Shown here: piece by piece, positions 5,861 to 52,100 of the stretch | Numbering within the stretch: the stretch's first letter is position 1 | How the letters are laid out: each line of letters opens with the position of its first letter | NCBI RefSeq assembly: GCF_032362555.1 | Contig: NC_083507.1 | Location: 1,305,001 to 1,369,000 of the forward strand | Direction: 5' to 3' | DNA from: Amyelois transitella | Lineage: Eukaryota; Arthropoda; Insecta; Lepidoptera; Pyralidae | DNA length: 64,000 nucleotides | Made by a program: the position numbers and the translations under genes | The notes under the pieces: generated by a model | Told to the model about the DNA's origin: nothing | Seen by the model: the letters and a program-made list of their open reading frames with translations, nothing else | Databases searched by the model: none

Positions 5861-6239
5861 AAGGCAAATGCGAGAGCACTGCACCACTCCCATAATACAA
5901 TACAATACAATGCAAATTATCTTTTTGCCCATAAAAAATACATATGTTCTTAGTAGAAACATACATTATGAATATGTTGAGCAAAGGCGGACTAATCGCT
6001 AAGCAATCTCCTCCAGCCAACATTTGGGTAGTGATAGGTAAAATCCTGAACTGGGTGGGTGGCCTACCCCTCCGGGAAAGAGGCTTGATTTTATGTATGT
6101 ATGTATTATGTATTTTAATATAGTATATTAAGGCTAGTTTCATAATATGGATTCTGTTATAAAAACGAATTCACCATTAACTACTCAGTTTTAGCATGGT
6201 CGACAATGATGATTATGATAGCATAGTATATATATGCCT

Positions 6240-6386
6240 AGTAGCAACCTGTCACTATTAGAATCTCAATTCTATAATTAAGCCTAACAGCTGAACTTGG
6301 CCTTTCAGTCTTTCATGACTGCTGGCTCCCGTCTACCCCGCAAGGGATATAGACGTAACTGTGTGTGTATATGTATGTATGTAGTA
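6240..6386 (-). repeat. SINE-like repeat (260-bp family), truncated minus copy
   Basis: It runs from TAGCAACCTGTCACTATT to CTACCCCGCAAGGGATATAG and the (ATGT)n tail. Confidence 0.75.
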
Positions 6387-6834
6387 GTAAATATAGTATA
6401 ATATAGATAATATTATAATATGGATTTAGGTATTAAAAGATGTTACCATTAACAACTCAGTTTTGGCGATGATTATGATTTGTAAAAAGCGGGCTAAACT
6501 GCACCGGTGTTGCACATTTGCCTGAAAAAAAAAACAATGCGAAACTACTGACTTTCAAGTTCAACAAGAACATCTTTCTGCCAATTTTATATCGATCAAC
6601 GTCAAAATCTGTCCAGCGGTGCGGTGTTGCCAACTCAGCACCCGACACTTAATCTAGCTCCTTTTTCACTACGTCAGCGCCCATATTAGGCGCCTAATTT
6701 TTAGTAATCAGGCGCTATTTTCTATCAATAAATTATACACAGTTTCTTATTCTAGGGTTTCATGGACTTTTTTTTTAAGGAATTGAGATATAATACCAAA
6801 TAGAAAACAAAGTTAATTGAAGAAGATGTTTTAT

Positions 6835-7160
6835 ATTGCATCCTCACCTCTCTAGAGAGGAACCCGGGGTATGTCTTCGACCATACACGTAGCAACTCCC
6901 ATTTGGCCTCTGCAACCTTTGCAGGTAAAACCTAATCTGAATTGGATCCGTGGTTACACATCCAGTTGCCTGAATGTGCAGGTTTTCGCACGATGTTTTC
7001 CCTCACCGTAAGAGCATTGGTTAGTATTCAAAGTTATGTACATAACTTTGAAAATAGTCATTGATAAATGGTCGAGGTGAGATTTGAACCTGTGCCTTTC
7101 TGCGCATCTCGGAATTTAACCAGGCAACTTACCAATTCAACCACCGACGCACTTAGACAT
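6835..7160 (-). repeat. tRNA-like SINE copy
   Basis: On the minus strand a tRNA-like head containing a B-box-like GGTTCAAATCTCACC is followed by the TAAGAGCATTGG and GCAGGTTTTCGCACG blocks. A related copy in the other orientation lies at 60257-60555, and a partial one near 55340-55535. Confidence 0.6.
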
Positions 7161-7493
7161 CTAACATAAGCACTTGTAATTTATTGTAGTGCAATAAAGA
7201 GTTAATATTTTGTATTGTTGTTGGCAAATCAGGTAATTTAGCGCTTTTTTGAGACCGATTTAGCGCCTTCTCGTCGGGAGGAGTTGGTTACTCACACAGC
7301 GATATCGAATCGATCTTCTTACTGACTCAGTTAAGCTACATCGGTCAACTCATTTCTTTTTTGGTCTCGTGATTTTCTTCACGAAACGCTAATTTTATTT
7401 CAATGTAACAAAATATAGATTCTTGTGTTTTCCATACTATTCAAATAGCACATTTTATCATTCACAGTAAAGATATCTTTAACAATTTCGGCG

Positions 7494-9203
7494 ATGGAGA
7501 CTGATGAAGTGGTGCCTGAAAACGGAGACATGTTCGTACATCGATTAAAACAACTAACTGATGATGAGAAAAAGAGACTGGAGGAACAGAATAACCGTAT
7601 GATTCCAGAGTCCAAAGCGGTTAAATTGGAGAAAGAAGCGAAACGTCATTGGGATATATTTTACAAGCGGAATGAGACGAAATTCTTCAGAGACCGGCAT
7701 TGGACGACACGTGAGTTTCAAGAGTTGATAAATTTCAATGCAGATCAACGCATCGTGTATTTAGAATTGGGATGTGGTGTCGGGAACATGATTTACCCAC
7801 TAGTTGAGGAAGGATTCTCAAATTTCTACTTCTACGCTTGTGACTTTTCGCCACGTGCTGTCGACTTCGTAAAGGCGAATAAATTGTACGATGAGAACAA
7901 AATGAAGGCGTTTTGTGCTGATCTAACTACTGAAGACTTATTCGAGAATGTTCCTGAAGGTTCTGCGGATATAGCGAGCTTGATATTCGTGTTGTCAGCT
8001 ATCCAGCCGGCGTCCTGGGGGCACGTTGCCCGCGTGGCTTTCCGCGCGCTCAAACCTGGTGGCGTGTTGCTCTTCAGAGACTATGGGAGATATGACATGG
8101 CACAGCTGAGATTCAAGCCAGGACACAAGATTGCTGAGAATTTTTACATGAGACAAGATGGCACAAGGTTGGTATAATTTATAATCTCCTTCCTAGCATA
8201 TCAGCATCCAAACCGAATATAACCCTGTGTTACTTAAAATGCAACTGAAATCCCATCTAAATTACAATGCTCCGCACGAGTCGGCTAGCCAAAATGGCTG
8301 GTTTTGACTTTATGAGAGCATAGATCAATATGTGTGCCCCTATGGTGGCTCTCAGTATGCTGAGTCAACTTTCCTAGCAACCAGACATTTATTGTTTTAC
8401 TCATTTGTCATATTTGCGATACTTCTACCATAATACCATTGTCTTAAAGAATACCAAATTTTTAAGCCCATCCCTTGGTTGCCTTTTACGACATCCATGG
8501 GAACAAGATAGAGTGGTACCTATTTGTTTATTGATGGCACATGGCAAATAAAAATTAAAACTGTTCAATCTTTAATGCGCACTATAAATTTTACAAGGAT
8601 GGTGACACTAATACTCAATTCATATCCACAGAAGCTACTACTTCACGGAAGAGGAGTTAGCAAAAGTGTTCACTGAAGCTGGTTTCGACATCCTTATGAA
8701 CACGTACGTTGAACGCCGCACTGTCAACGTCAAAGAAGGCATCAACGCGCCTCGCATCTTTGTACAGGGGAAATACCAGAAGCCTACAGTGAACGGTAAG
8801 TTAATATAATACCATACACATGCGTACATGTGGTCACTTAAAAGTATTGTATGTTAGAATGTGGGTATTTTACTATAAGGATACTAAATTTCATGAGAAT
8901 CTGTGAAGCAGTTTAGCTGGAAAAGTGGAACAGACAGACAGACTTTCGCATTTATAATGTTATGTATCTAAAGGATTTCAAACATAACTTCTTACTAAGT
9001 ATTGCAATCTCAGGAATAGGAGCCTGCAGAAATAGCCCATTTACAATTTTACATTAAACTCGGAATGATGAAAAATGCTAACCATTGAATTAACAGTGAT
9101 TTGCATGTATATTAGCTCTAGCTGACTGTATCTTACCCAGTTTTTAATCATTTTGTTCTAAAATCTTTGGATATTAACTTGATAATTCTGTTTCACAGAT
9201 TGA
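7494..9203 (+). CDS. METTL6: METTL6-like tRNA N3-methylcytidine methyltransferase
   Basis: A class I SAM-dependent methyltransferase of the METTL2/6/8 family, which forms 3-methylcytidine at position 32 of the tRNA anticodon loop. Exons are 7494-8167, 8632-8795 and 9199-9203. Donors gttggt and gtaagt and acceptors ccacag and tttcacag keep the frame across AGA and GAT codons. The product is about 280 aa, close to human METTL6. The block RHWDIFYKRNETKFFRDRHW (residues 51-70), the SAM-binding motif LELGCGVGN (about 90-98), ACDFSPRAV and LKPGGVLLFRDYG are typical of METTL6 rather than METTL2. The ATG at 7494 is the first in frame and gives the family's N-terminus. The stop falls 5 nt into exon 3, so the remaining downstream exons are 3' UTR or host-gene exons. 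Skipping 9199-9247 would instead add a tail that stays open through three further short exons. Confidence 0.9.
8459..8547 (+). repeat. SINE-like repeat fragment in METTL6 intron 1
   Basis: Only the distal block remains, with CCTTTTACGACATCCATGGG and the TGGCACATGGCA end. Confidence 0.6.
9062..9128 (+). ncRNA. Box C/D snoRNA, 18S guide (U57/snR51-like)
   Basis: It lies in the intron 8796-9198. Box C ATGATGA is at 9065-9071 and box D CTGA at 9122-9125. The D box ends 73 nt before the 3' splice site, the usual position of intronic box C/D snoRNAs in animals. The guide before box D, ATTAGCTCTAG, is complementary to the conserved 18S segment CTAGAGCTAAT. By the D+5 rule it points to the A of CUAGAGC, which I recall as the U57 target in human and the snR51 target in yeast. 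The boxes and complementarity are seen; the name rests on recalled rRNA sequence. Confidence 0.85.
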
Positions 9204-9509
9204 GAACACAAAGGAACAATTTGGGATAAAAATGAATGAAGGAAAAGGTATGTTTCACTGTTTTATTTAAATTGTGGATTAATTCCATATTTTTTTGTTT
9301 TTACCCTGACCCTTCCCATATAAAGCTAATATTGTTTTTGTGGAATACAAAGATGTCAAGCATCAATGATTTATAACAGGATAAGGCCCTGTCTACCCCA
9401 TAATGGATAGGCAAGACATATAAATTCCTCTAATCAAATCATGCTAGAATTATACAAACGACAATACATTACTATTTATGACTTTAGAGAGAGCTCCTTA
9501 ACATCTTAT

Positions 9510-9660
9510 TAAAAAACTGAAAGGCCATATTCAGCCGTTTGGCTTAATGATAAAATTGAGATTCAAATAGTGAAATGAATCAAATAACTATTCCAAGAAG
9601 AATCCCATAGTGAAATGAATTTTAAAAAAAAATATCCCAAGAAGAATCCCAAGTTAAAGC
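9510..9660 (+). repeat. Degenerate SINE-like repeat (260-bp family)
   Basis: It keeps ACTGAAAGGCCATATTCAGC, GATTCAAATAGTGA and a doubled AAGAAGAATCCCA block; the ends are lost. Confidence 0.5.
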
Positions 9661-9695
9661 CTATGTTGTATATAAATTTATTTATGATTTATCAT

Positions 9696-9765
9696 ACTAA
9701 TGATGACATCGCAGTGCAGCAGATAACCTTGGTGTCCTCACAGCGGGTATCAAACAGATTAGGGA
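9696..9765 (+). ncRNA. Possible box C/D-like RNA in the intron 9248-9953 (weak)
   Basis: A box-C-like ATGATGA at 9700-9706 is followed about 50 nt later by CAGA, a D-box variant, and short CTAA/TTAG arms flank the pair. It lies about 190 nt from the acceptor, which is atypical. A CTGA at 9882-9885 sits at the normal distance of 68 nt but has no convincing box C. This intron may hold a decayed or H/ACA-type RNA, or none. Confidence 0.2.
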
Positions 9766-10131
9766 ACAATTTGATATTAACTTGGTAATTTGTAATTAAT
9801 TTATCTTTGTATATTCTTCAAAATTGTAGATCAGGGCCCTGCTGTGAGGTCTGATGAGCTTGAAAGCTTTTCATAAGCCGTCTGAAACATGTTTGTGAAA
9901 TGTATTTTGTTAAGCACTAGACTTAAATTGATGCTATTTTCGTTTGTTTACAGATCTTTGCATGTGGGAGGTGTTGATTGAAATTGGTAAGTTTCTTCCC
10001 ACTATTATTTTAAATGTTTAGAATTAGTAAAAATGTGTTTATTTCGCTTTCACACAAAAACTACTGAACGGATTTAAATGATACTTGTAGTTATATAGCT
10101 TAGAAATATTGTTATAACCATATTATCCAAG

Positions 10132-12250
10132 GACTAGCCCGCGACTTCGTACACGCGGAATAGTTATTTTGGGCATCATTAAAGAAGGATGAATAATTTT
10201 CCCCGTTTTTTTCACATATTCCATTATTTCTTGGCTCCTTATGTTTGCAGCGTGATGTTATATAGCCTTAAGCCTTCCTCGATAAATGGTCTATTCAACG
10301 CAACAAGAATTTTTGAATTCGACGTTCAAACAAACAAGCTCTTCAGCTTTATAATAGAGCAAGAGCCCGTGAACGCCAGACATACCTTATTTTGTAAAAG
10401 CTGAAAGTTTCTGTAAATATGCCTCTAGTACAGGTAGGAACGATCCCCACCTATGGTACTCAGGCAGTGGTTGCTTTGGCAGGTAGCAGGTAATAAAGGT
10501 ATACTTTTTTCAACCTGAAATTCGTTAATTTGTAAAGCTCAATTTTTTGATATTTTATCCGTAATAATACACAAACTCGCGTTACTCATTGCCAGACACG
10601 TACTATGGTTGCAACCCCTTGCCAGACACCCCTAAACTATAATATTTTGTAACTCTACTTACGTCATTTTGTAAAATCTGAATTTAATACATATTTTTCG
10701 GGGAATTATTCAAACAAAGTTTCTGAAGTAGCCAGACATTTTTGAAGGTTCTATTATCCTGCCAGACGCATTTGAGTGAGCAAAAGATGCAAGAGTGCGG
10801 AGTATATGTAGTAACTGGAGCGAGTGGAACAGAGTGGGTATCGTTCAGCGGACGGTTATACACGCATAGTAAACGTTGTAATATTAATTTGTGCTCGTTG
10901 TAAAATAAATTTGATCCAGTTTTAATAAAGTGCTATCATGAGTGACTAAAAAGAAGACGGAGTTTGCTTTGTCTGTAAAAAAAAGACTTTCAAAAAATAT
11001 CAGACTATTTTAAAATTACGAAAAACACATAACCTCAAATATAAAGAGATTATTTTATAAAATGAACTTCATATAACTTAAAAATAATATGAATAATTGT
11101 TTCGTTTTTTCACAGTATTAATATTTTGTTATACAGGGTGACATTTAAAACAACTGCATTCTTTTAAACATACACTACACCCATGTTTCTGAGCTGTTTG
11201 AGCCTATTTTTATTTAAATTAAACGTCATCATTTTCACATTTAAAAAGCCCTCAAAAACTACGTCACACGCTTTATTATAGACCAATACTACAAAAATAA
11301 ATTAAAACTAAACATGTAAATAAATGTCTGAAAAATAAATTATTTTTCTTGTATCAAGATCAAGTAAAATACAGAGTTGTCGAGATCGCTCAGCTAAATG
11401 AATTGTATCGTTGACCTTTGAATCTTACGCGTCGCTTTTCCGCCGCCCGGGGTGATATGACGTGTTTAGGATCGTGGATTTTGATACTTTTATTTTTTTT
11501 CGTACTTTCTGAAATATGAATCGATATTTTTCTTTTAACGTTTTTAAATATCCTATAGATGAGTACACTTAACAGTTAAATTTATGCAGTTGAATTAAAA
11601 GTCACCCTGTATAATTCTTAATGAACATTGTTTTCAAAATTTTGTATGTAATGCTTTTATTTAATATTTTTTTTTGATAAATTAGAAAAAGAGACCGCAT
11701 AATAAACGACAGCTGATGCGCAATGAAACGTCGCAAGAAACCGAACGCTCTGTCCCACTCGCTCCAGTTACTACATATGCTCCGCACTCTTGCATCTTTT
11801 GCTCACTCCAATGCGTCTGGCAGGATAATAGAACCTTCAAAAATGTCTGGCTAATACAGAAACGTTGTTTGAATAATTCCCCGAAAAATATGTATTAAAT
11901 TCAGATTTTACAAAATGACGTAAGTAGAGTTACAAAATATTATAGTTTAGGGGTGTCTGGCAAGGGGTTGCAACCATAGTACGTGTCTGGCAATGAGTAA
12001 CGCGAGTTTGTGTATTATTACGGATAAAATATCAAAAAATTGAGCTTTACAAATTAACGAATTTCAGGTTGAAAAAGTATACCTTTATTACCTGCTACCT
12101 GCCAAAGCAACCACTGCCTGAGTACCATAGGTGGGGATCGTTCCTACCTGTACTAGAGGCATATTTACAGAAACTTTCAGCTTTTACAAAATCAGGTATG
12201 TCTGGCGTTCACGGGCTCTTGGGCTATAATATTAGTATAGATAATTATAA
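10132..12250 (-). mobile_element. Helitron-like element split by a long-TIR element
   Basis: The left part has CCCGCGACTTCGTACACGCG, GGGCATCATT and CAACGTTC-type blocks shared with copies at 53789-54154 and 54629-54910. The right terminus TTAGTATAGAT lies beyond the inserted element 10357-12224. Removing that insert and one copy of TATAATA restores the usual CTTTATAATATTAGTATAG end. Confidence 0.6.
10357..12224. mobile_element. 1.87-kb DNA transposon with 480-bp terminal inverted repeats
   Basis: The left arm 10357-10836 and the right arm 11746-12224 are near-perfect reverse complements. The tips share CAAGAGCCCGTGAACGCCAG. A 7-bp direct repeat TATAATA flanks it (10350-10356 and 12225-12231). 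The interior of about 910 bp has no long ORF. A short frame from ATG 10938 reads MSD, a stop, then KEDGVCFVCKKKTFKKY, which looks like the decayed start of a CxxC protein. It sits in the intron before exon 12421-12462. The superfamily is not clear to me; the TSD length is compatible with P-like or foldback-type elements. Confidence 0.8.
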
Positions 12251-12280
12251 AACACATATAACTTACTGAAGTAGAATATT

Positions 12281-12352
12281 TAATGATGATTTCATAGTTC
12301 ATCTGAATGCTTTGATGTACACACTATTATGTCTTTCGCTCCTATCTGACAA
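12281..12352 (+). ncRNA. Box C/D snoRNA, LSU rRNA guide
   Basis: Box C ATGATGA 12283-12289, D' CTGA 12303-12306, C'-like TTGATGT, and D CTGA 12346-12349. Box D ends 71 nt before the acceptor of exon 12421-12462. The guide GTCTTTCGCTCCTAT before box D pairs, with one G-U, with the conserved 28S motif ATAGGGGCGAAAGAC recalled from other eukaryotes, a region methylated by U32/U51/snR39-type guides. Confidence 0.85.
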
Positions 12353-12512
12353 TATTCTGTTTTGAGACACTGAGAAATAAATTGAGAACAATTATTTAAC
12401 ATTTACAAATTTTCTTACAGATAACATTGCTGCGCTGTGCAGAATGTGGATGGGTTTTAATTGTAAGTACATAGTTATATAATTATTAACCTATCCAGTT
12501 TAAATAACTGGC

Positions 12513-12765
12513 CATACATACATAAAATCACTCCTATATCCCTTCATACTTCAGGGGTAGACAGAGCCAACAATCTTGAAATACTGATAGGCTACATTCA
12601 GCTTTTTGGCTTAACGATAGATTTGGGATTCTAATAGTGACAGGTTGCTAGTAAATCGTCTAAATGATTAATAAGCCTATCCCTTAGTCGCCTTTTATGA
12701 CATCCATGGGAAAGAAATGGAGTGGTGCTATTCTTTTTTGAGTTGGTGCCGGGAACCACACGGCA
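12513..12765 (+). repeat. SINE-like repeat (260-bp family), full copy
   Basis: It lies inside the snoRNA host intron 12463-13062, about 160 bp upstream of the snoRNA there. All family blocks are present, ending GGGAACCACACGGCA. Confidence 0.8.
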
Positions 12766-12927
12766 TATACGTATAACAACAACAACAAGTCTAGGAACGG
12801 GTATATAGGTTTGAGCTTGCACTCATAAAAGCATCTTGCCTGGGTTGAGGCGTGAACCCGCATCCATGGAACTCTGAGGAAAGCACATTACCACCGCGCC
12901 ACATGGACTTATAAAATTAATGACATT

Positions 12928-12996
12928 AAAATGATGATATCAGATAGGGACATCTGATTTTATAATGCTGTTAACATAACTATCCACACTGATTTC
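12928..12996 (+). ncRNA. Box C/D snoRNA, LSU rRNA guide, copy 1 of 2
   Basis: Box C ATGATGA 12931-12937, D' CTGA 12954-12957, D CTGA 12989-12992. Box D ends 70 nt before the acceptor at 13062. The D' guide AGATAGGGACAT pairs with the conserved 28S motif ATGTCCCTATCT; D'+5 falls on a C, as I recall for the yeast snR76 site. The D guide AACTATCCACA differs from that of the copy at 13446-13511. I could not place its target. Confidence 0.85.
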
Positions 12997-13236
12997 TCAC
13001 ATTACTTACCAATGACAAACATAAATGTGACTCGCACTACAAATGACTGTGTTTTGTTTCAGATAAATGCAGCTACACTTACATTATACCCAGGGATGAT
13101 TTCCAGTGATGGTATGTTTTTTCTGCTTCCAATAAAAAGGTGGTTCTAAGATTAAACTGTATGTATGTTTGTCTTTGAGGTAAACTAAATTACGTATGTA
13201 ATTAATTATACGGAGTGACATTCAGTCCGACTTCGT

Positions 13237-13387
13237 CAGCCTGACTAATGGGTTGCAAGCCCGTCGCCCAAAAGAATAAGAATCCCAAAATTTATTAGCA
13301 TATCCCTTAGTCGCCTATTACGACATCCATGGAAAAGATATTGAGTGGTCGTAGTCTATTTCTATAGGTGCCGGTAACCACACGGCA
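13237..13387 (+). repeat. SINE-like repeat (260-bp family), 5'-truncated
   Basis: It starts near GGGTTGCAAGCCCGTCGCCC and runs to GGTAACCACACGGCA, inside the intron before exon 13579-13622. Confidence 0.7.
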
Positions 13388-13445
13388 GTAAAGTATCAAG
13401 TACAATATAATCCGTCTGGTCCGATGAAGTGTTTTAGATGACAAT

Positions 13446-13511
13446 ATAATGATGATTCTAGATAGGGACATCTGAACATGATGCTGTTAACATAACTATC
13501 CTCACTGATTT
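13446..13511 (+). ncRNA. Box C/D snoRNA, LSU rRNA guide, copy 2 of 2
   Basis: Box C ATGATGA 13449-13455, D' CTGA 13472-13475, C'-like ATGATGC, and D CTGA 13505-13508, which ends 70 nt before the acceptor at 13578. The D' guide AGATAGGGACAT is identical to that of the 12928 copy, while the segment before box D reads AACTATCCTCA. The two genes are diverged duplicates in consecutive introns. Confidence 0.85.
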
Positions 13512-13940
13512 TCTATAGCTATAATAATTAAAAGTTACTTCCCTTCAACTTTGACAGATTTTTTTTTTGTATTTTCAGATGACGCACGAAGAATACGAGC
13601 ATTGATATGCAATATCTTAGAGGTTTGTAGATATTATAATCTTTTTTTAATAAATATACTGGATTAATTTCCATTAAATTTGTTATTTCTGACCATTGGA
13701 TATGATTTACTAATCTATGGGCAGAACAGATCAACCAATGAATGATTTTAATTGAAAAATGGAATTTTACATCCAATACAGTGCTTTTTTTTAATGTCCT
13801 TTAATAAGGAAATCTATTCACTTTTTTTTTTTTTTTTGACACAAACTAAACGTAAAGTTATTTGGAAATGGAATATAAATTATACATAGATAGGCCACTT
13901 ATTATATGCCAGTATATTATGTAAATAAAAAGGAAATTTA

Positions 13941-14019
13941 AAATGATGACCAGACCTTCAGGTCTCCCTCAACAGAGCGAACCCAATCAACCATGTTGAC
14001 CAACCACACGCGTCTGATT
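13941..14019 (+). ncRNA. Box C/D snoRNA, orphan guide, copy 1 of 3
   Basis: Box C ATGATGA 13943-13949 and D CTGA 14014-14017, 73 nt before the acceptor at 14090. The 79-bp block is identical to those at 14525 and 15613. The guide before box D is CAACCACACGCGT, for which I recall no rRNA match. A hairpin AGACC-TTCA-GGTCT follows box C. Confidence 0.8.
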
Positions 14020-14220
14020 TACAATGATATATATGTAAAATGTACACGAAACTTATAACTTGTGATTAAAAATCTTTTTTTTTTTTTAAGGAAATTGAAC
14101 TGCAGTGGAAGGAAATTTCAACAATTGAATGAAGAATTTAATGCTTTAAAAAGGTAATTTGGTTTGATATCATCTCAAGATCATACATGTAATTACATTA
14201 TCACGTAAACAATGCAAATA

Positions 14221-14390
14221 GTCGTGGAAAGACTAATAGGCCACGTTCATCTGTGTGGCTTAATGATTGAATTCAGATTCAAATAATAACAGGTTGCTAG
14301 CCCATCGCCTACAAGGAGAATCCAAAGTTTATCCCTTAGTCGCCTTTTACGACATCCATGGAAAAGAGATAGTGTAGTCATATTATTTTT
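14221..14390 (+). repeat. SINE-like repeat (260-bp family), truncated at both ends
   Basis: It contains AGACTAATAGGCCACGTTCA, ACAGGTTGCTAGCCC and CGCCTTTTACGACATCCATG, in the intron 14154-14673. Confidence 0.7.
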
Positions 14391-14524
14391 TTATTTTTGT
14401 GTATTATTTACTAAAGAATGTGCCAAATGCAGGTGAGCGTGGATGTCAATTTTTGTTGGGTATAGTAATTTTTAAATAAATGAAATTTGGTAAGAAACAA
14501 ATTCTAGAATCTTGTTTACATTTA

Positions 14525-14603
14525 AAATGATGACCAGACCTTCAGGTCTCCCTCAACAGAGCGAACCCAATCAACCATGTTGACCAACCACACGCGTCTG
14601 ATT
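14525..14603 (+). ncRNA. Box C/D snoRNA, orphan guide, copy 2 of 3
   Basis: Box C 14527-14533 and D 14598-14601, 72 nt before the acceptor at 14673. No difference from copy 1 over 79 bp, although the flanking intron sequence is unrelated. Confidence 0.8.
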
Positions 14604-14756
14604 ATATAAAATAAAAAAAAACTTCTCAATTTTTTTTTTATGTTTCTTAAGCATACTTTTTTAATTTTTTCAGATACTTGAGAGATGCTAATGACATCAC
14701 TAAATGAGGTTGGTATATTCTTATGTGTTTTTAATTGTGAACGAAAATAGATGACA

Positions 14757-14946
14757 TACAAACATAAATATGGTCACGTCTATATCCCTTGAGGGGTAGA
14801 CAGAGCCCAACAGTCTTGAAAAGACTGAATGGCCACGTTCAGCTATTTGCCTTAATGATAGAATTGAGATTCAAATAGTGACAGGTTGCTAGCCCATCGC
14901 CTAAAAAAGAATCCCAAGTTTGTAAGCCTATCCATTAGTCGCCTTC
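14757..14946 (+). repeat. SINE-like repeat (260-bp family), 3'-truncated
   Basis: It begins with the CATA-type end and stops at CCATTAGTCGCCTT. Confidence 0.75.
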
Positions 14947-15191
14947 GAAAATAGATGATGTAACAGATTTTAAACTTTCGTGTTATACTATTTATAAATA
15001 CTATAGGTATTAAACTCGCACGATCGATCATTGTAACATGATTTCAAACGTCCGAGATTAAATATAGGCACGTGACGTGCGCATTTAATACCTGTAGCAT
15101 TTTTTATTATAAATGATGTGACTTAAATTTAAAAAAAAAAAAATTTAAAAATTAGAACATGCATGCGCTCTTGTGTTATACCTCCGTGTAC

Positions 15192-15263
15192 TTAATGATG
15201 TAAACTTGTACAATGATAAATATTGTGATTTTAATTACATTGTTTCGTCACTACCTCTGAAAA
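15192..15263 (+). ncRNA. Box C/D snoRNA, 18S guide (snR87-like)
   Basis: Box C ATGATGT 15195-15201, with one mismatch to the consensus, and box D CTGA 15257-15260, 76 nt before the acceptor at 15336. The guide TTTCGTCACTACCT is complementary to the 18S motif AGGTAGTGACGAAA as I recall it from insects; D+5 falls on the A of GGUAGUG, the site of yeast snR87. Confidence 0.8.
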
Positions 15264-15426
15264 AAAAATTTTTATTTCTATATTTTCCTACCAAGAAAAT
15301 ATTAGGTATACTAAAATGTGTTATTTATTGTTTTAGGGTCAACATTTTGAAGCAGCTTTGGTTATAAAAGCGAAACATGAACCCACTTCACACCACGTAA
15401 GTTGATTACAAAAATGTTATGTTAAT

Positions 15427-15485
15427 GCTGTTGGCTCTGTCTACCCCGCAAGGGATATAGACATGATTATATGTATGTATGTATA
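15427..15485 (-). repeat. SINE-like repeat tail fragment
   Basis: Only TGGCTCTGTCTACCCCGCAA, the GGGATATAGACATGATT block and (ATGT)n remain. Confidence 0.7.
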
Positions 15486-15612
15486 ATGTTTATTCAGAAA
15501 ACGTTCATATTAGTAGGTATTCTCATTATTCTGCAGAGATTCTTTTGTTTTCATTTTAACTAAATCAGTACCACAAATCGCAATAATTCTAGAGATTTTA
15601 GAAGTAACAATG

Positions 15613-15691
15613 AAATGATGACCAGACCTTCAGGTCTCCCTCAACAGAGCGAACCCAATCAACCATGTTGACCAACCACACGCGTCTGATT
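15613..15691 (+). ncRNA. Box C/D snoRNA, orphan guide, copy 3 of 3
   Basis: Box C 15615-15621 and D 15686-15689, 89 nt before the acceptor at 15778. Identical to the copies at 13941 and 14525. Confidence 0.8.
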
Positions 15692-16338
15692 TATAATTTA
15701 GATACAAAAATATTATTACTTATGTATTATGTACAAAAGCATGGTATTAATTATATTTGTATTTTTTTTTTGTTACAGCCGTAATCAAAGAGAAATTTGA
15801 GCAACAAAGACTTCTTTAAAGGTAAATAATAATTAAATTTAAATCACCTTTTATTTTCATACAATGCATTTCGCTTTCATTTAGATGTAAGATTTTAGAA
15901 CTGCACAATTATCTTTCTCATATGAATCCCTATTTGAAGACCCTATGTAAAGTTCATAAAGTATTTTATAGTGTAAGGAAGTTACTAACTTGTGTCTGCG
16001 ATCCTATAGAGGCGTTCGTCATAGGGCGCGGTCTACGTAGCGCAGACGCAGAATATTGGGGTTGAAACTGCTGGAGCGGCGAGCGTTCACCGCTTCGGTT
16101 ATATAAACTCGCTACAATTATTTATGACTAAGAAAAAAAATATTAACTGTATAGACTTTTTCACTTGCTTCGTGTAAAAACCTGACTCACCTAATCCAAG
16201 ATCCATGGTCAAAGGTGTACCCCGGACTCCTGTCCAGAGTTGAGGAGCCAGGAATACTCACCAAAGCGGGAATAAGTTGGTACCAGAGACGCTGAGTTAA
16301 ATTATCACTTATAATGTTAGCGTTCAATCTCTCTCTCA

Positions 16339-16482
16339 TGAATGTCGTAAATGGCGACTAAGGGATGGGCTTACAAATTAGGGATTTTTCTTTTCGACGT
16401 TGGACTAGCAACCTGTCACACTACTTCAATCTGAGTTCTATCGTAAAGCCAAACAGCTGAACGTGGCCTATCAGTCTGTTCT
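16339..16482 (-). repeat. SINE-like repeat fragment beside the last host exon
   Basis: It runs from a GTCGTAAATGGCGACTAAGG block to GAACGTGGCCTATCAGTCTG. It abuts the acceptor tctgttctttttcag of the last exon, so the SINE may have contributed part of that pyrimidine tract. Confidence 0.65.
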
Positions 16483-16589
16483 TTTTCAGGTTTACAAAAC
16501 AAAAGTTTCTGTGAACGACGCACAAGCGAAGTGTGAAATGCTGTTTGAGTATGTACACATTGTGACTGATGGTTCAGAACTGAAATGTC

Positions 16590-16595
16590 AATAAA
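16590..16595 (+). terminator. Polyadenylation signal AATAAA of the METTL6/snoRNA host transcript
   Basis: AATAAA is followed within 10 nt by a T-rich stretch, about 100 nt into the last exon. That exon also has a 34-codon open frame ending at the TAA inside the signal. Confidence 0.6.
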
Positions 16596-16630
16596 GTTTT
16601 TTTTTAATATCAGCTGGTGTTTATTTTTAA

Positions 16631-16834
16631 CTAGAGGCCCCCCGCGACTTCGTCCGTATGGAAACCCTATCAATCCCGCGGGAACTCTGGGATAAATAGT
16701 AGCCTATGTGTTATTCTGGATCTTCAGCTTCCCACATACCAAATTTCATCGTAATCGGTTCAGTAATTTTTGCGTGAAAGAGTAACAAACATCTATACTG
16801 ACATACAAACTTTCGCATTTATAATATAAGTAAG
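16631..16834 (-). mobile_element. Helitron-like non-autonomous element
   Basis: It reads CTAGAGGCC at the left and a TTATAATATAAGTAAGA-type end at the right, the reverse complement of the copies at 39084 and 39369. Confidence 0.6.
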
Positions 16835-17468
16835 ATTACTAGGTTCCTACGCGTACCATAATAGATACCTAATTTAAATACTAGGTACCTATTGATCTTT
16901 GCTTATTTGCATTGGATATGATATTATTAGATTTCAGTCAAAGTGAAATTACTGATAGATGCGTGAACGAACTTTCTTGAAACTTATAATATTATGTTAA
17001 GAATACCAAGGCGACCTAAATTCTTTCAGTGAGCTTCTTAGTGCTTCCATTTAAGCGCTAGAAGGCTTGGGTCATTCCCGTTCGTCCCACCAGGAATGAT
17101 GGTGGGACGAACGGAAATAAAAATTATAAAGCTCGTCCCACTGGTACGACAAAGCTTAGTGTGACGAACGGGATTAACACATAATTTTGGGATAGGTGGT
17201 ATGAAATTCTGTGCCATGTTCAATCAGATTATTGGATAGGTACCTAGTTAATCAAATATGTTTAAGGTTGGCAACATAAAATCACAACACGAGTATTTAG
17301 TAACGTGACGTATACGCAGGGTATTTTGTTTATCTGTTACTTTGTTCGAGCATCACATAAAAATGAATTATGCCACTTAAATCACTTGAGCTTAATCACC
17401 TGGGTGAATTAAGTCAACCAAACAGTGGACTTGTAAATAAGGGAATAGAGGCTTAAAAGCGCAATCAA

Positions 17469-18724
17469 GACTGAAGTACCATGAACGTCAAGATGACGGA
17501 GCCACCTCGCAAAACACAAATATTGTCGAACCAGCCCTTAGTACCTGGTTTGTACCTTTTGGTACCTATATCAAAAAATTTTGTACCTCAAAGAATTGAA
17601 AAATATCGATTGTGATATGTGGTTCCTCCATCTTGACGTCAAAATGGAGGAAAAATTATCTCAAAGTCGATTAAATTTATTTGATGGGCTGTTCTACAAC
17701 TTGAATCCTCGTATAATTTAATAACATAACATTTGCATTGTGCTTTTAAATAATTAATAAATATAAATTTTTGTACTAAATCCTAAACGCCTAGAACTTT
17801 TGAAGTAAAGTTTTCGTTTAATACATTTTGCTATAATTAATCACAGGCACTTCTGTCATTTTCTTTTTGCTAATTATTTTCTTAAAAAACTGCTTTAAAA
17901 AACGATTATAGCGATAAGATCTTGGGAGGTACTAACCTGGTACTAAGTGTCCGTGTGGTCATCTCGACGGTATACATTATATTTTTATAAGAAACGAAGG
18001 TGGTTCCTCCATTTTGACGTCAAGATGGAGGAACCACATATCACAATCGATATTTTTCAATTCTTTGAGGTACAAAATTTTTTGATATAGGTACCAAAAG
18101 GTACAAACCAGGTACTAAGGGCTGGTTCGACAATATTTGTGTTTTGCGAGGTGGCTCCGTCATCTTGACGTTCATGAAGTACCAGGGTAGCAGAAATTGA
18201 AAGGAAGTACCTATATGAGATGGTGTGGAATAGTTTTGAGGTGAGTATTCGAATATGTATGAGATGGTTTTGGGATTATTTTGAGTATCGTACAACCCAA
18301 CTGTTTGTTTGTAAATTCTTTATTGCACATAAAAATAAATAAAACAAATTACAAAACAGTTATTGTTTTGTATCGGATTTAGAAGAATTTGTACAATGGC
18401 GGACTTATCCCCAATGGGATTTCTTCCAGTCAACCAAAATATAAAGGAAAATCCATAATTAAAAAGGCAGCGCACATAAAAAGCATTGATATGCAATAAA
18501 ATAAACAATACATCTCTACATAATTAAAGATAGGTAAACATACATAAATAATATACATACAAACTGATTACTATTTGGGTCGGATTCTTCGTAGTCAAAA
18601 GTACCAGGCTAACATAAAGTGCTAGGTAAATTCGAAATTATTCCAAGATACCTTCTTTCCAAAATCTACCCTAAAACCATCTCATATACTACCTTTCAAT
18701 TTGTGCTACCCTGGTACTTCAGTC
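17469..18724. mobile_element. Middle inverted-repeat element interrupted by a MITE
   Basis: The left tip GACTGAAGTACC continues after the inner insertion as AGGGTAGCAGAAATTGAAAGG. The right tip is the inverse, CCTTTCAATTTGTGCTACCC followed by TGGTACTTCAGTC. Confidence 0.55.
17481..18175. mobile_element. MITE with about 170-bp TIRs and an 8-bp target duplication
   Basis: The tips are ATGAACGTCAAGATGACGG and its inverse. The arms, 17481-17653 and 18003-18175, are almost identical inverted copies. GAAGTACC flanks it at 17473-17480 and 18176-18183. An 8-bp duplication suggests a hAT- or P-like mobilising transposase. Confidence 0.75.
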
Positions 18725-19900
18725 ATATACATATATATATAAATACCAAACTAGCATTTTTGAATAAACAATCATCATCTTTTAAATACGACCTAAAATT
18801 GGATCCTACAATTTAACGCAGTAGATTTTTCGAGCATCTATTTATCTTCCTGTAATTTTGACTATAAAAAACTAGTCAAATAGAAAGATGATTTACATTT
18901 AATGTTTTTTATTTTACCTATCACTAGACTTAATTTTAGTTTCAAATGATAATATGTAACATTAACGTTTGTAGATACCTACCTCAAGAACCAATTTTCG
19001 TATTAGTGGGACGAACGGGAAGCGTATAAAATATCCTTCCCGTTCGTCCCACCAAGAATGATGGTGGGCCGAACGGGAATAACCCGAAGGCTTTATGAAT
19101 TACTTCTAGGATTTCCGATTACTCTTTAACAGTAGATATTTTTGACAATATAATTTATTCACAAATTAGCACTAATTACCTATGTTTAAGCCAAGGTCCC
19201 ACATTCAATGGTTTCCGAGATACAGCTTTCTGCAACACGTGACTCCAGCAGGAAACTAAATAACTCTAAAACCCTATGGCGCACAAATTAAATTTTATGC
19301 TGCACTTTCTTGCTGAAATATAAGCTATCTGCTGATATTCATTACTTGCTTCTCCGGGTCCAGCAGGAAAAATCTTCCTGCTGGAACAGCGTTACTCCAG
19401 CAGAATTTTTTGCACAAATTTTATATTTCGCGCACATTTACACGAGATAATGCATTAATTATTTATTAAACTCAGTAGGGTCTAGAACGAAACTTCCTTC
19501 TGGAGTCACGCACACTGGTCATAAGGTAGGGAAAATAAAAAAATATACTAAGTCACACAAATGAACGTGGCATTTCAGTTTATTCAAGACTTGGCTCTGT
19601 CTAACCTTCAAGAGTTATAGACGTGACTATTCGTAAACAGATTAAATACAAAAACCATTTTTAGCTGTAATATTAATAGTAAGTATTAATTATGGAAATG
19701 TGATTGAAATACTACATAGTGGTAAATTACTAGCAGCCGATCGCCTAAAAGGAGAATCCTACGTTGACAGTTCCTCTGATTTACATTTTACAATTTATCA
19801 CACTATTTTCTTCACTGTGTTCTTAATTCTCTTTGTCATCCACGGAATGTTGTGGTCCAAAGAAAAAACAACAGATTCTATACAAAATACTTTTAATATC

Positions 19901-46178: not shown

Positions 46179-49100
46179 ATGGCTGCCGTGCAACAAAATT
46201 TAACAAAAATGCTTTCGGCACAACTACGCAATAAAGCTACGGAGTTTTTAAACTCAAGAAAACATGCAAATAATCTTGCTGACATTTTACAGATGTTTGA
46301 GGTAACCATAAATATATCATATACAATTATATTCAAAGTGCTAAAAATGTTTTCTTAGGTTACGTTTTGTATGTACTATTTTTGTATATTTCAGGCTGAA
46401 ACAGACAATTATACGCCGCTACTGCTTACAGTTGAAGTGATATTTACTGAACTATTAAAAAGGGGCGATTTGATTGAGGAAATAGTACCCCTAAAACCAA
46501 TGGGTGAGTACTACTATTGAAACCGTATACAATATGACTTTGCTGCCATTTAGTGTTAAAATTATTGATTTACCCGAATAAGCACTTATGTTATGTAGAT
46601 TTGGGACTAAAAAACTTGGAGAAAACATATTTGTTCTATGTTTTTGCAATATTTACAAATTAATAAATAATAAATTTCCAAAACTGGTCACATTTTGAGA
46701 CATGTGACTTTTTTGCACTTATGTAAATCTATGATGTAAATTGTTGCTAGGACTGCGGGCTGAAACTGGCTTGTGTAATGCTTGTAACCTGAGCTTCTTG
46801 TTTTGGTTTTTACATATCAAATATATACTGCCATATGGTCAAATCAAATCAAATCTATTTATTGTGGAGCACAGGTAAAAAGATAATATAATTATATAGA
46901 GTACCACTGAGTCCTGTCTTTACAGACGTACAATAATTAATTACATACATTTATATAAAATAAAGTCAACATAAAAATTTAAATTAAATTGAAAATGTCA
47001 GTACACGCATCAAAAATAAGAATTATATAAATTAAATCGAATTATTATGTCAAATTGTCTTGTAGAAAATCTTTAACACTGTAATAACATCTTTCTATTA
47101 AAAGCTGTTTAATTGTCTTTTTAAATGTCACTAAATCTTCGGTCTTATAACTATCTGGCAATTTATTAAAAATCTTAGGAGCCATCCCGATCACATTATT
47201 ACTGATCAAAGATTTTTGATGTCCTCCAATAACCAACTTTTGCTGGTATTGAGGTCTCACACGATCTGGCCTCATTCTTATGTCCGCTATTTTTGTAAAC
47301 AAGTGGGGATTAGATTTTACAAAAAGACAAACTTCTAATATATAAATACTGGGTAATGTTAACATTTTATGTGCTTTAAACATAGGCACACAGCTGTCTC
47401 TAGATTTCAGTCCACACATCGATCTGATACATCTTTTTTGGGCCTTGAAGACTTTGTTAACTTCTACCGCATTACCCCAAAATATTACACCATAGTTTAA
47501 ATGAGGGGTGACTAAACCATAATAAGCCACCAATGCAGCTTCTAATTTAACTTTTTTAGATATCCTAAATAACGCATAAGCCGATTTGTTTAGTTTTTTA
47601 CATACTTCTTCGATATGAGAAGACCATGATAATTGACTGTCAACAGTAAGGCCAAGGAACTTTGTCGTTTGAACTTCGTCAATATTTTGACTATTATATT
47701 GTATGTTAAGATTAGGTGGTATTTTTCTATTATAAAATTGCATAACTTTAGTTTTCATTAAATTAATTTTTAAATTATTAGTTTCTAACCATTGAATTAT
47801 ATCATTTATTGTATTATTTATGTCATATTCGTACTCCTTCGGGTCGTCACATTTAATAATTGCAGTGCTATCGTCTGCAAATAGTACCATTTTTTGCTGT
47901 ACTTTTTGAGGTAAATCATTAATATAAATGAGAAACAGAAGCGGCCCAAGGACGCTTCCTTGAGGAACGCCGAACTTGTTTATTCTATATCCTGACAGAT
48001 GATTGATTTCTTGCTTTTTTTTGGGACAAATACTGGTTATTTCCACGCATTGGCTTCTATTATCTAAGTAAGATTTTATTAAATTTAATACATTTCCTCT
48101 GATGCCGTACTTATTTAATTTGTTCAATAGTCTATTGCGATTAACAAAGTCAAATGCTTGTGTCATATCGGTATACACTATGCATACAGGGTTCCTCTTA
48201 TCCACATTTTTCATTACAATGTCCAGCATATCATATATCGCCATACTAATTGTCTTATTCTTTCTAAATCCCTTTTGTTCGTCACATAAAATTTTATATT
48301 TAGTCAAGTAATTGTAAATGGAGTCATATAAATATTTTTCAAAAATCTTTGTAAAAATTGTTCCAAGTGCCACTGGCCTAAAATTAGACATAATTTTTTT
48401 ATCCCCTTTTTTATGTAGTGGTTTTATAATAGTTGGTTTAAGTTTATCAGGATAAATACCAGCAGAAATGCACATATTGATGAGAAAACATATATGTGGG
48501 GCAATATATTCACAAACAGACTTAACCACTTTTGTGGAGATATCATCGTAACCTGTACTATTGGTGTTTTTTAGTGTTCTTACAATTTTTATTACTTCCT
48601 CAGTCATAATTGGCATTAAAAACATAGATTGTGGCTGAAATATTAGATCAACTTTATCATATAATTTATTCGAAGAGTTTTCAATTTTTTCAATAAAGTA
48701 CGCATTAAAAGCCTCTGCTATTGATTTAGGATCTGATATTGAGTTATCATCGTGTTGAACTTCTGATATGTAGTCTTTTTTTATATATTTATCATTTATT
48801 ATTTGCCAAGTTGCTTTAGATTTATTTTGTGCGTTGTTGATGTAAAATGTATTTTGAGCCTTCTGTGTTAAATTGATTATGGTTTTAAATTTTTTTGAGT
48901 AATTTTTTAAATTAATTTTGGTCTGCCTAGATGGCGCTGTTCTATGTTTCCATAATAAACTTCTTTTTCTTCGACTGCAAATTTTTATTCCTTTTGAAAT
49001 CCATCTCAATTTCTTCTTACTTTTAAATATTTTTATTTTAAGCGGAAAACAGAGATTGTAAATCATTTGAAAATTATCAAAGAAATGATTGAAAGCAGTA

Positions 49101-52100
49101 TTGGGATCATCTGTATTATAGATACCAGAAAAGGGAAAAAAAAAAAGTTTTAAATATTCAATCGACAAATCTCTTTTTTTAGCACGCCATTGACTTAATT
49201 TGTTGATTTTGGTGGTTGGTTCCCAGCACTTGAGATAGGACTAATCCATATCTTGCTATAGATGTTGTTAAAGGCGACTAAGGGAAAGACTCATAACTAA
49301 GGATTTTTTTGTCGGCTAGCAGTCTGTGAATATCAATATCAGTAAGCTCTGTCTTCTTCTTGCAATGGGATCCTAGATTTTTTTACTTCTCAGCTGCCTT
49401 AGCACTGATCAGTGCACTGGCCTCAACTGCTTAAGCTCTGATCAGCGCTTGCTTTTTATTTTGAGTATTAATGCATTACTATAAGTTTGGAAATAATCCT
49501 TTCTCACTCAAAATATTGATTTCCTGTGGTAGATGTGGGTGTAAATCGGAATGCAGGCTTGGCAGCTAAGCGGTTAATTAAAAAAAGTATTAACTGTTGG
49601 ACACATTAATGCAAAAAGGACAGTCTTTGTTGAATAAGCACAATATTTATAGAAATTATAGAAGAAAGAAATATAATTACATTACATTATCTTTATCATT
49701 AACTATTAGGTACTAACAATGATACAATGTTTTATTAAATATTGAATAAAATCATAACAGATCACAGTCCGGAAGCGGAATACACAAGATGGCTGCAGGA
49801 ATGCTACGAGACAGCCCTTGCTCGCACTCTGGAGTGCATCAAACGCGGGCGTACCAGCTCCCGTCTCCAGGCTCTGGTTACGGCCAGCAAGCTGCTGCAG
49901 ATGGAAGGGAAGAACCCATTGGAGAGTACCGCAGGGTACTTCTTCCCGTCTATCAGATTGAAGGTATTGTCACATTATAAAAAAAAGTCACCCATTGCGT
50001 CTATCTATCATCTGTTTGCGATTATCTCGGAAAGTAATATGAAATTTAATTCAGTTTGAAAAACAAGTAGAAGGAATTCCTGAGGAAGGTTTGAGGGTTT
50101 AATAATCTCTTACCTTTGCTGATATCATAAGACAAACCACAGGTTCCTTGTGGGTAATAGAATGGACTGAAAAAAGTTGGAGAGATCTGAAGTTGGCCTT
50201 TGTGTAGAAGGCCACGCTGATGGAGACTAATGTCTTCTTTTCCTGGCTTTAGTCCCGGTTGCATTCTCATCACTCTGAAGAGGAGCCCAGGGTATGCCTT
50301 TGACCAGGGATCCTGGTTTGGGTGAGTCAGGTTTCCACACAAAGCCCGCTGACTACTACAACCTATCCAGGAGAAATCAGCTCATATCATCATCATTTGG
50401 ATCATGGTAAAAAGTGCACCAGTACAAGGTGTTTTGACATAGAAAATAAATTCATGTGAAGCCTCTAGAGTGTATTGCTCATAACTTGAAAGAAAACTAG
50501 TTAGACAGCTGCATATTACAGTATATTTATGGCTTTGCGGCCATTCCGCGTGTTTGAGCTAGTATAAGAATCAGATTTGACTTCTTCTAGATTCGAAATC
50601 TTATTTTAAACAGAGTTATTCAGTATTCTATATTTATTTTACACAAAGAGTGTCAAGTATTATTATTCCCTTAGTCTCTTTTGCGACATGAATCGAAAAA
50701 AGATGCAAATGGATCAGGGCCATTGTTTCTCTTTTCCACTGAACCACAGATATATGTCTGTACATATATTATATTAAAATTGTTTCAGAATATATTCACT
50801 GTGCTGTTAGACTCTGACATGTCAATGTCAGCTCCCATAGCCCGCTTCCAGGAATTCACAGAGTACAGGGATGTACAGCAGTACGGTCTAAAAGTACTCT
50901 CCACGCTCGCTTATCGCAAGTAAGTTGTTTTACACACACACACACATACATATGGTCACGTCCAATAAAAAAGAATAGAACCACTTCCTCTCATTCCCAT
51001 GGATATCTTTAAAGGCGACTAAGGGATAGGCTTATAAACTTAAGATTCTTCTTTTAGGCGATGAGCTAGCAACCTGAACGTCGTGGCATTTCAGTCTTTT
51101 CAAGATTGATGGCTCTGTCTAGCCTGCGAGGTATAAAGATGTGACTATATATATGTTTGTATGTATGGATAAAATATGGATTCTTCTTTGAGCAACTTTC
51201 ACTATCTGAATCTCAACATCACTAAGCCATGCAGCTAAAAGTGGTTCAGAGTTTTTTTTAGTTCTATCAGACCTGCCTACTCTGTATGGCATGAAGACGT
51301 CACATATGTATTGTAAGTCTCTTTTTTTTAACCCAGATCTCCAAACTCCGTATTCATGCAGAACTACCTAGAGCTACTGGACAAACTGTTGGCTTTGGAG
51401 ATCCCGCTGGAAGCCAAGATCAAGGTCAAGGAGCGAGAGGAGGAGAAGGAGGAGAAACTCCTGTGTGGAACTGAAAGTAAGTGAATTCTACCACTGGATA
51501 AAGGCACTTAGTAGGGGAGACTGGGGACACTTGATCCCCATTTTAGTTTATTGCTCATATCTTAGTCTATAGTAATGGCTTTCAGAAAATTTTTGGTGAC
51601 TTCCTAGAAAAACTATTCATCTTACTTTGTACATTATCAGATTATGGAATTAATTAATAATAAGTACTTTTTTAAAAAATTTACTATGACATTACAAAAG
51701 GATCAAGTGTCCCCTATGCTGGGAGACTTGATCACTGTGTAGGTTAGATTTGATTATAGGGGAACAAGTGTACCTACGTCATTATAAAATAATAATGCAT
51801 TTTACAATATAAAAGTTGTTTATTTAATCACATAAACATAACAAAAATCAACACTTACAATGGTTATATTATTTTAGACCTCTATGTGTTTACTTAAAGA
51901 TAATTTGAGTCTTAATAATCACAATCCTTACTAAATGTGTACCTACTAAAACTTTTTGTCTTATTTTTATTATCGCAACGATTTACATCATTATAGGGAA
52001 ATTTAACATCTGGCTGTCGTTGTTTGGTTGTTTCCTGGCGTATCTTCTTAGTGTCATCGAAGGCACATCATAAAGTTTTGCAGTTCCTTTGATAGTATTT

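Follow-up and report, generated by a model that had tools for sequence, protein, structure and literature searches.

The window analysed in this study is a 64,000-nucleotide (nt) stretch of Amyelois transitella DNA (contig NC_083507.1, positions 1,305,001 to 1,369,000), in which positions are counted from the first letter. Its + strand carries a gene encoding METTL6, followed by a chain of short exons whose introns contain guide RNA motifs of the box C/D class; METTL6, the splice signals, these motifs and the non-coding character of the tail are all demonstrated by the DNA itself. The exon chain was read over positions 6000-17500 and submitted to motif, coding, homology and chance tests. An earlier sequence-only reading suggested that a small nucleolar RNA (snoRNA) host gene is joined to METTL6, which gained support here from an Rfam family, from matches of some of the guides to ribosomal RNA (rRNA), and from a splice-made stop codon in the public protein record. 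We consider it likely that METTL6 and the snoRNA host tail form one bifunctional gene in the same transcription unit.

The coding part of METTL6 consists of exon 1 (7494-8167, with the ATG at 7494), exon 2 (8632-8795, with a GTAAGT donor at 8796), and the sequence from 9199 onward, which together encode 280 residues. The translation is identical to the NCBI METTL6 record of A. transitella (100% identity over 100% of the length), and the next named match is from Plodia interpunctella (88%). Homology extends over the full length of the protein, as human METTL6 structures are matched at residues 20-279 of 280 (E 1.3e-89), and methyltransferase families are also matched in Pfam. The NCBI record ends in ...PTVND, and a splice from 8795 to 9199 (AAC G, then AT TGA) is needed for the terminal D and the stop codon, whereas the unspliced DNA past 8795, AACGGTAAGTTAATATAA, would give N G K L I and then a stop. 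Since the recorded ending is obtainable only via this splice, the public model uses the same junction that had been predicted earlier, and the junction is thus supported by a public protein record; either reads or only a gene predictor may stand behind that model. Exon 3 (9199-9247) provides the last two bases of the final METTL6 codon and the stop codon (TGA, 9201-9203), and its remainder serves as 3' untranslated region (UTR) or host exon. The sequence-only reading placed the host exons after the METTL6 stop codon; its ten exons stand, but the stop codon is located inside the first of them, so the intron preceding that exon already bears a box C/D RNA. METTL6 exon 1 also contains two CACGTG E-boxes (7708-7713, 7852-7857), a motif found 11 times in the window against 7.0 expected, which is near chance. 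According to the available part of PMC4430873, some Drosophila Uhg genes show Myc binding at E-boxes.

With intron 1 lying within the METTL6 coding part, the ten exons of the tail are numbered 3 to 12. They run from 9199 to about 16610 with GT/AG donors and acceptors, which rebuilds the chain of ten small exons described before. Exon 3 is followed by exons 4 (9954-9986), 5 (12421-12462), 6 (13063-13111), 7 (13579-13622), and 8 (14091-14153); exon 9 (14674-14712) has two candidate donors, after 14712 or after 14708, the latter giving an alternative end; then come exons 10 (15337-15396) and 11 (15779-15821), and the last exon (16490-16610), which contains AATAAA at 16590 and whose end is estimated. 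In introns 2-11, eight of the donors agree with the nine-base consensus at 7 or 8 positions, a level of at least 7/9 being reached by 69 of the 3489 GT sites in the window.

Box C together with a CTGA box D is present in 8 of the 11 introns (2 and 4-10), box C being ATGATGA in seven and ATGATGT in one, in line with the earlier count of at least eight such RNAs with ATGATGA or one mismatch. The spans from C to D are 60-75 nt, and the distances from the end of box D to the acceptor are 70, 70, 71, 72, 73, 73, 76, and 89 nt, the same spacing (70-76 nt, one 89 nt) as previously read. Intronic box C/D RNAs are expected to have box D about 65-90 nt upstream of the acceptor, and both the boxes and this distance are found in the eight introns. 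A filter of RTGATGW plus CTGA, with a C-D distance of 55-80 nt and a D-to-AG distance of 60-95 nt, was passed by a mean of 0.017 and a maximum of one of 11 introns in 1000 dinucleotide-shuffled sets (last 300 nt per intron), against 8/11 in the real sequence. Outside the region, acceptor-like sites passed the filter in 0 of 120 cases on the + strand and 1 of 113 on the - strand; inside the region, only 4 of 16 passed, because the simple acceptor filter skips some proposed acceptors. A stricter RTGATGA scan of the 64 kb returned seven pairs on the + strand, all within this gene and with terminal stems of 1-6 pairs, and four on the - strand with stems of 1-2 pairs. The motif filter gave no box C/D candidate in intron 1 or intron 11.

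A search for insect rRNA gave no hit in viral contigs and, among genome contigs, only two divergent, non-insect eukaryotic rDNA contigs (L001 and L002). The guides were compared with these two contigs, and two 18S guides, whose sites we take to be A159 and A512, with published primer strings. Against these references the pairing is good for introns 2, 4, 6, and 9 and weak for intron 5. An Infernal-type search, as suggested earlier, was carried out with Rfam covariance models and yielded one family above its cut-off and two more below. The family above it is RF00309, matched by the RNA of intron 4 (12274-12357) at 60.9 bits against a gathering score of 41, and the D guide of this RNA pairs at 15 of 16 positions with the large subunit (LSU) rRNA of L002. 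Box C/D RNA 1 (9065-9125), in intron 2 and upstream of the METTL6 stop codon, was recognised by its motifs and 18S complementarity; its guide is complementary to 18S CTAGAGCTAATA, with 12 nt exact against an 18S primer string of PMC2732451, and in Rfam it matched only SNORD41, below the cut-off (E 0.7). Box C/D RNA 5 in intron 9 (15192-15262, C at 15195 and D at 15257) is labelled SNORD70-like only, as it misses the gathering score of RF00575 (39.1 against 50 bits; E 0.0023), and its guide shows complementarity over 14 nt to the human 18S sequence given in PMC11095704. Viral contigs contain no exact copy of either of two snoRNA strings searched. The known moth snoRNA Sf-15/Bm-15 was also considered and set aside, its antisense target being absent from the window.

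The other box C/D RNAs belong to two multi-copy families. Box C/D RNA 3a in intron 5 (12931-12992) and its paralogue 3b in intron 6 (13449-13508) resemble Me28S-Cm2645 (RF00530) but fall short of its gathering score of 48 bits (28.9 and 25.6 bits, respectively). Box C/D RNA 4a in intron 7 (13943-14017), recognised by motifs and repeat copies, has copies identical over 75 nt in intron 8 (4b, 14527-14601) and intron 10 (4c, 15615-15689). These two families, and the flanks that differ among the three copies of one of them, would suit an origin of the guide RNAs as retroposed silent copies in introns. However, such copies are expected to be placed at random and to drift, whereas all eight RNAs are at processing distance from a proposed acceptor and the guides are preserved in the single-copy families, and we therefore attach very little credence to this explanation.

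A protein gene that evolves fast or has decayed, and that just happens to contain snoRNAs, might instead account for the small exons, given that two frames of the spliced tail stay open for 56 and 61 codons. However, the run of 61 codons, the longest, was equalled or exceeded in 219 of 1000 dinucleotide shuffles, and the G+C content of the tail (0.36) resembles that of the introns (0.27-0.39) and not that of the METTL6 codons (0.45). Five tail pieces searched in Pfam gave nothing above the cut-off (best E 0.037); a protein search with a composite of the tail frames, in which one base is joined wrongly where exon 9 ends, gave no match at E ≤1 among 34 candidates; and a protein search with the 61-residue frame gave no match. 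On the shuffles, the G+C content, and these searches, we reject a coding reading of the tail, in accordance with the earlier view that the small exons lack a shared reading frame, and a protein gene of this kind is very improbable.

Two introns fall outside the box C/D set. Intron 3 contains a doubtful long C/D-like RNA (9700-9885, C at 9700-9706 and D at 9882-9885), whose boxes flank a stem, CCTCACAGC/GCTGTGAGG (9736/9841), and whose D box lies 68 nt upstream of the acceptor; it folds no better than shuffles (z -0.50) and has no convincing match in Rfam. Intron 11 probably carries an H/ACA RNA (15992-16119), additional to the box C/D RNAs of the sequence-only reading. RNAs of this class are built as hairpin - ANANNA - hairpin - ACA, with 14-16 nt from the upper stem to ACA, and the candidate has this architecture: a 5' hairpin (15992-16049), an H box AGAATA (16050-16055), a 3' hairpin (16056-16113), and ACA (16114-16116) at 14 nt from the upper stem. 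Its fold has a z of -3.52, with 0 of 200 shuffles as good, and it gave no match in Rfam. The place was picked by eye before a scan of the 64 kb, in which 3 of 7663 H-ACA spacings on both strands passed and the intron 11 candidate was the best (-50.0 kcal/mol); the best value on 12 shuffled + strands was -31.7. A second, G+C-rich H/ACA-like match (53541-53610, -47.4) was dropped, as shuffled sequences fold just as well (z -0.71); Rfam gave there only SNORA44, at E 0.23 and on the other strand. This match scores nearly as well as that of intron 11, so the scan alone is no proof.

Several repeats lie within and beyond the gene. Intron 4 is 2.4 kb long, mostly because of a foldback element (10350-12231), whose arm pairs of 160 and 329 nt are 98% complementary. 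A short interspersed repeat has copies in introns 3, 5, 8, 9, and 11 (9501-9598, 12568-12665, 14217-14314, and 14809-14906, and a partly inverted copy in intron 11 at 16324-16481), and short inverted repeats are clustered around CCCGTTCGTCCCACC (17076-17165, 19006-19070). Farther away, there are a 707-codon open reading frame on the - strand (47045-49168) that appears by eye similar to a reverse transcriptase of long interspersed nuclear elements, a tRNA gene (54179-54250, Rfam), and a 629-codon open reading frame on the - strand (62106-63995) that is perhaps derived from a mobile element.

The tail could also be a separate gene abutting or overlapping METTL6, in which METTL6 would end early, at a poly(A) site within one of introns 2 and 3, while a Uhg-type host would start from its own promoter at about 9.2-9.9 kb. 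ATTAAA is present at 9053 and 9508, and intron 3 contains TATA-like strings (9319, 9419, 9669, 9671) and the pyrimidine run CCCTTCCC at 9310, although TATA-like strings are commonplace in such A+T-rich DNA. Searched with simple patterns, intron 2 contains neither TATA nor a TOP-like run, just a single initiator-like TCATTT at 9148, and the donor of exon 3 is good (8/9). Furthermore, box C/D RNA 1 is situated within the intron that separates the METTL6 stop codon from the upstream coding exons, so at least this RNA is hosted by METTL6 if the end of the record is right. A Uhg-type non-coding gene would have its own promoter; by the protein record, exon 3 here is common to METTL6. In favour of a separate host gene, Drosophila Uhg genes lack any recognisable reading frame and, two introns excepted, carry one snoRNA per intron (PMC4430873). 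Taken together, two separate genes seem unlikely at this locus.

The proposal of a single METTL6-snoRNA gene is itself weakened by several observations, its weak point being the presumed continuity beyond exon 3. The donors of exon 7 (6/9) and exon 9 (5/9 or 6/9) are poor. No AATAAA occurs in 8796-10491, but ATTAAA is found at 10178 in addition to the two sites given above, and several intronic AATAAA occur from 10492 on; shorter METTL6 messenger RNAs (mRNAs) could arise through these intronic signals. The spliced 3' UTR of about 538 nt has nine junctions 44-417 nt downstream of the stop codon, which would mark an mRNA for decay in mammals; in insects, the decay of mRNAs with such junctions is less dependent on exon junctions. 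As for the guide RNAs, the terminal stems are short in several of them (longest uninterrupted pairing of 1-6 pairs in the seven RNAs of the strict scan), and a convincing guide RNA is missing from intron 3. Neither L001 nor L002 offers a good match to the D guides of introns 5, 6, and 7; D' guides paired with the divergent L002 were equalled by 16 of 200 (intron 4) and 73 of 200 (intron 5) shuffled guides. The triplet 4a/4b/4c has no rRNA target that we believe. Its CAGA-bound guide pairs at 12 of 13 positions with a protist LSU in L001, a score equal to that of intron 6, so pairing scores alone are no proof. This LSU target was dropped, as CAGA is a degenerate D', and to our knowledge no such target stretch exists in insect 28S.

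Mammalian GAS5 and UHG/SNHG1 host many box C/D RNAs, one per intron, between poorly coding exons, and share this layout with the moth gene; neither of them is known to encode an enzyme in the upstream part of its transcript, which sets the moth gene apart. In Drosophila, lola, Arpc2, and dom are protein-coding genes. According to the part of PMC13228274 that is available, 95% of the snoRNAs expressed in S2 cells are intronic, with clusters in Uhg1-Uhg8 and in these three genes, which resemble the moth gene in carrying a snoRNA cluster in introns of a coding gene; that part does not place their clusters in 3' UTR introns, where the moth cluster would lie, and names no tRNA methyltransferase. 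GAS5 has 10 box C/D snoRNAs in the accessible text of PMC6458620. Drosophila Uhg1-5, 7, and 8, as described in PMC4430873, have as many as 16 introns, with a single snoRNA per intron save for two introns, and exons without a recognisable frame. The moth tail is alike in these respects, its ten introns (2-11) holding eight box C/D RNAs and one H/ACA candidate, with intron 3 doubtful, and its exons showing no coding signal. However, Uhg genes are described there as dedicated to snoRNAs, whereas the moth tail follows METTL6 codons and has exon 3 in common with METTL6.

A comparable layout is that of human TAF1D, for which the available part of PMC11771880 describes an isoform with eight exons beyond the normal stop codon, so the arrangement has a precedent. 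That isoform is predicted to undergo nonsense-mediated decay, whereas the moth stop codon itself needs the first host exon, and the moth gene also differs in encoding an enzyme that modifies tRNA and in carrying mostly box C/D RNAs. The open-licence literature searched, as covered by titles, opening lines of abstracts, and passages, does not report METTL6 or another tRNA methyltransferase as paired with a snoRNA host gene, nor a moth gene with a box C/D tail on the Uhg scale, nor a stop codon that arises through the splice to the first host exon; one paper names METTL6 and "snoRNA host gene" together, but the two are unrelated in its accessible part. The pairing with METTL6 is therefore as unfamiliar as the sequence-only reading supposed, but the layout is not: a coding gene with post-stop exons and snoRNAs is already known, and METTL6 as host and the moth layout are new as far as this literature goes.

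In the one-gene organisation that we favour, RNA polymerase II would start at the METTL6 promoter and produce a precursor that reaches the AATAAA at 16590. Ten short exons would be spliced onto the two coding exons of METTL6; the first of the ten would contribute the stop codon and the two bases that finish the final METTL6 codon, and the others would be 3' UTR. Once spliced out, each of eight introns would release one box C/D RNA, protected as a small nucleolar ribonucleoprotein (snoRNP) and placed 70-89 nt upstream of the acceptor, and the last intron probably one H/ACA RNA. The exons would thereby yield a METTL6 mRNA whose spliced 3' UTR is long, and the introns would feed snoRNP assembly. 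We infer the one continuous transcript to 16.6 kb, its processing, and methylation of rRNA at the matched sites, as well as a METTL6 mRNA that is stable enough despite its nine post-stop junctions.

Because the METTL6 stop codon becomes complete only once the first host exon has been spliced on, METTL6 as recorded and the guides would come from one precursor. Among the best 44 METTL6 proteins, whose rows are not independent species, the motif FVQGK[YF] occurs in 43; its distance to the C-terminus is 5-9 residues in 31 of these 43, shorter in 4 and longer in 8, compared with 7 here. The C-terminal residue is G in 17 of the 43, which fits a codon split by a splice after G. These C-terminal lengths are compatible with a kept junction in other moths, and no more. 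It is possible, though we hold this only tentatively, that an obligate dual-output gene has been kept across Lepidoptera, with METTL6 as recorded and the guides from the same spliced precursor rising and falling together. If so, the formation of m3C in tRNA would be coupled to the capacity for 2'-O-methylation and pseudouridylation of rRNA. If the transcript is continuous, one promoter would govern the supply of a tRNA enzyme and of rRNA guides, the locus would provide a direct test of the tolerance of insects to nine splice junctions after a stop codon, and it would illustrate a way for a host gene of the Uhg kind to originate, or to persist, as the 3' UTR of a gene that encodes a protein.

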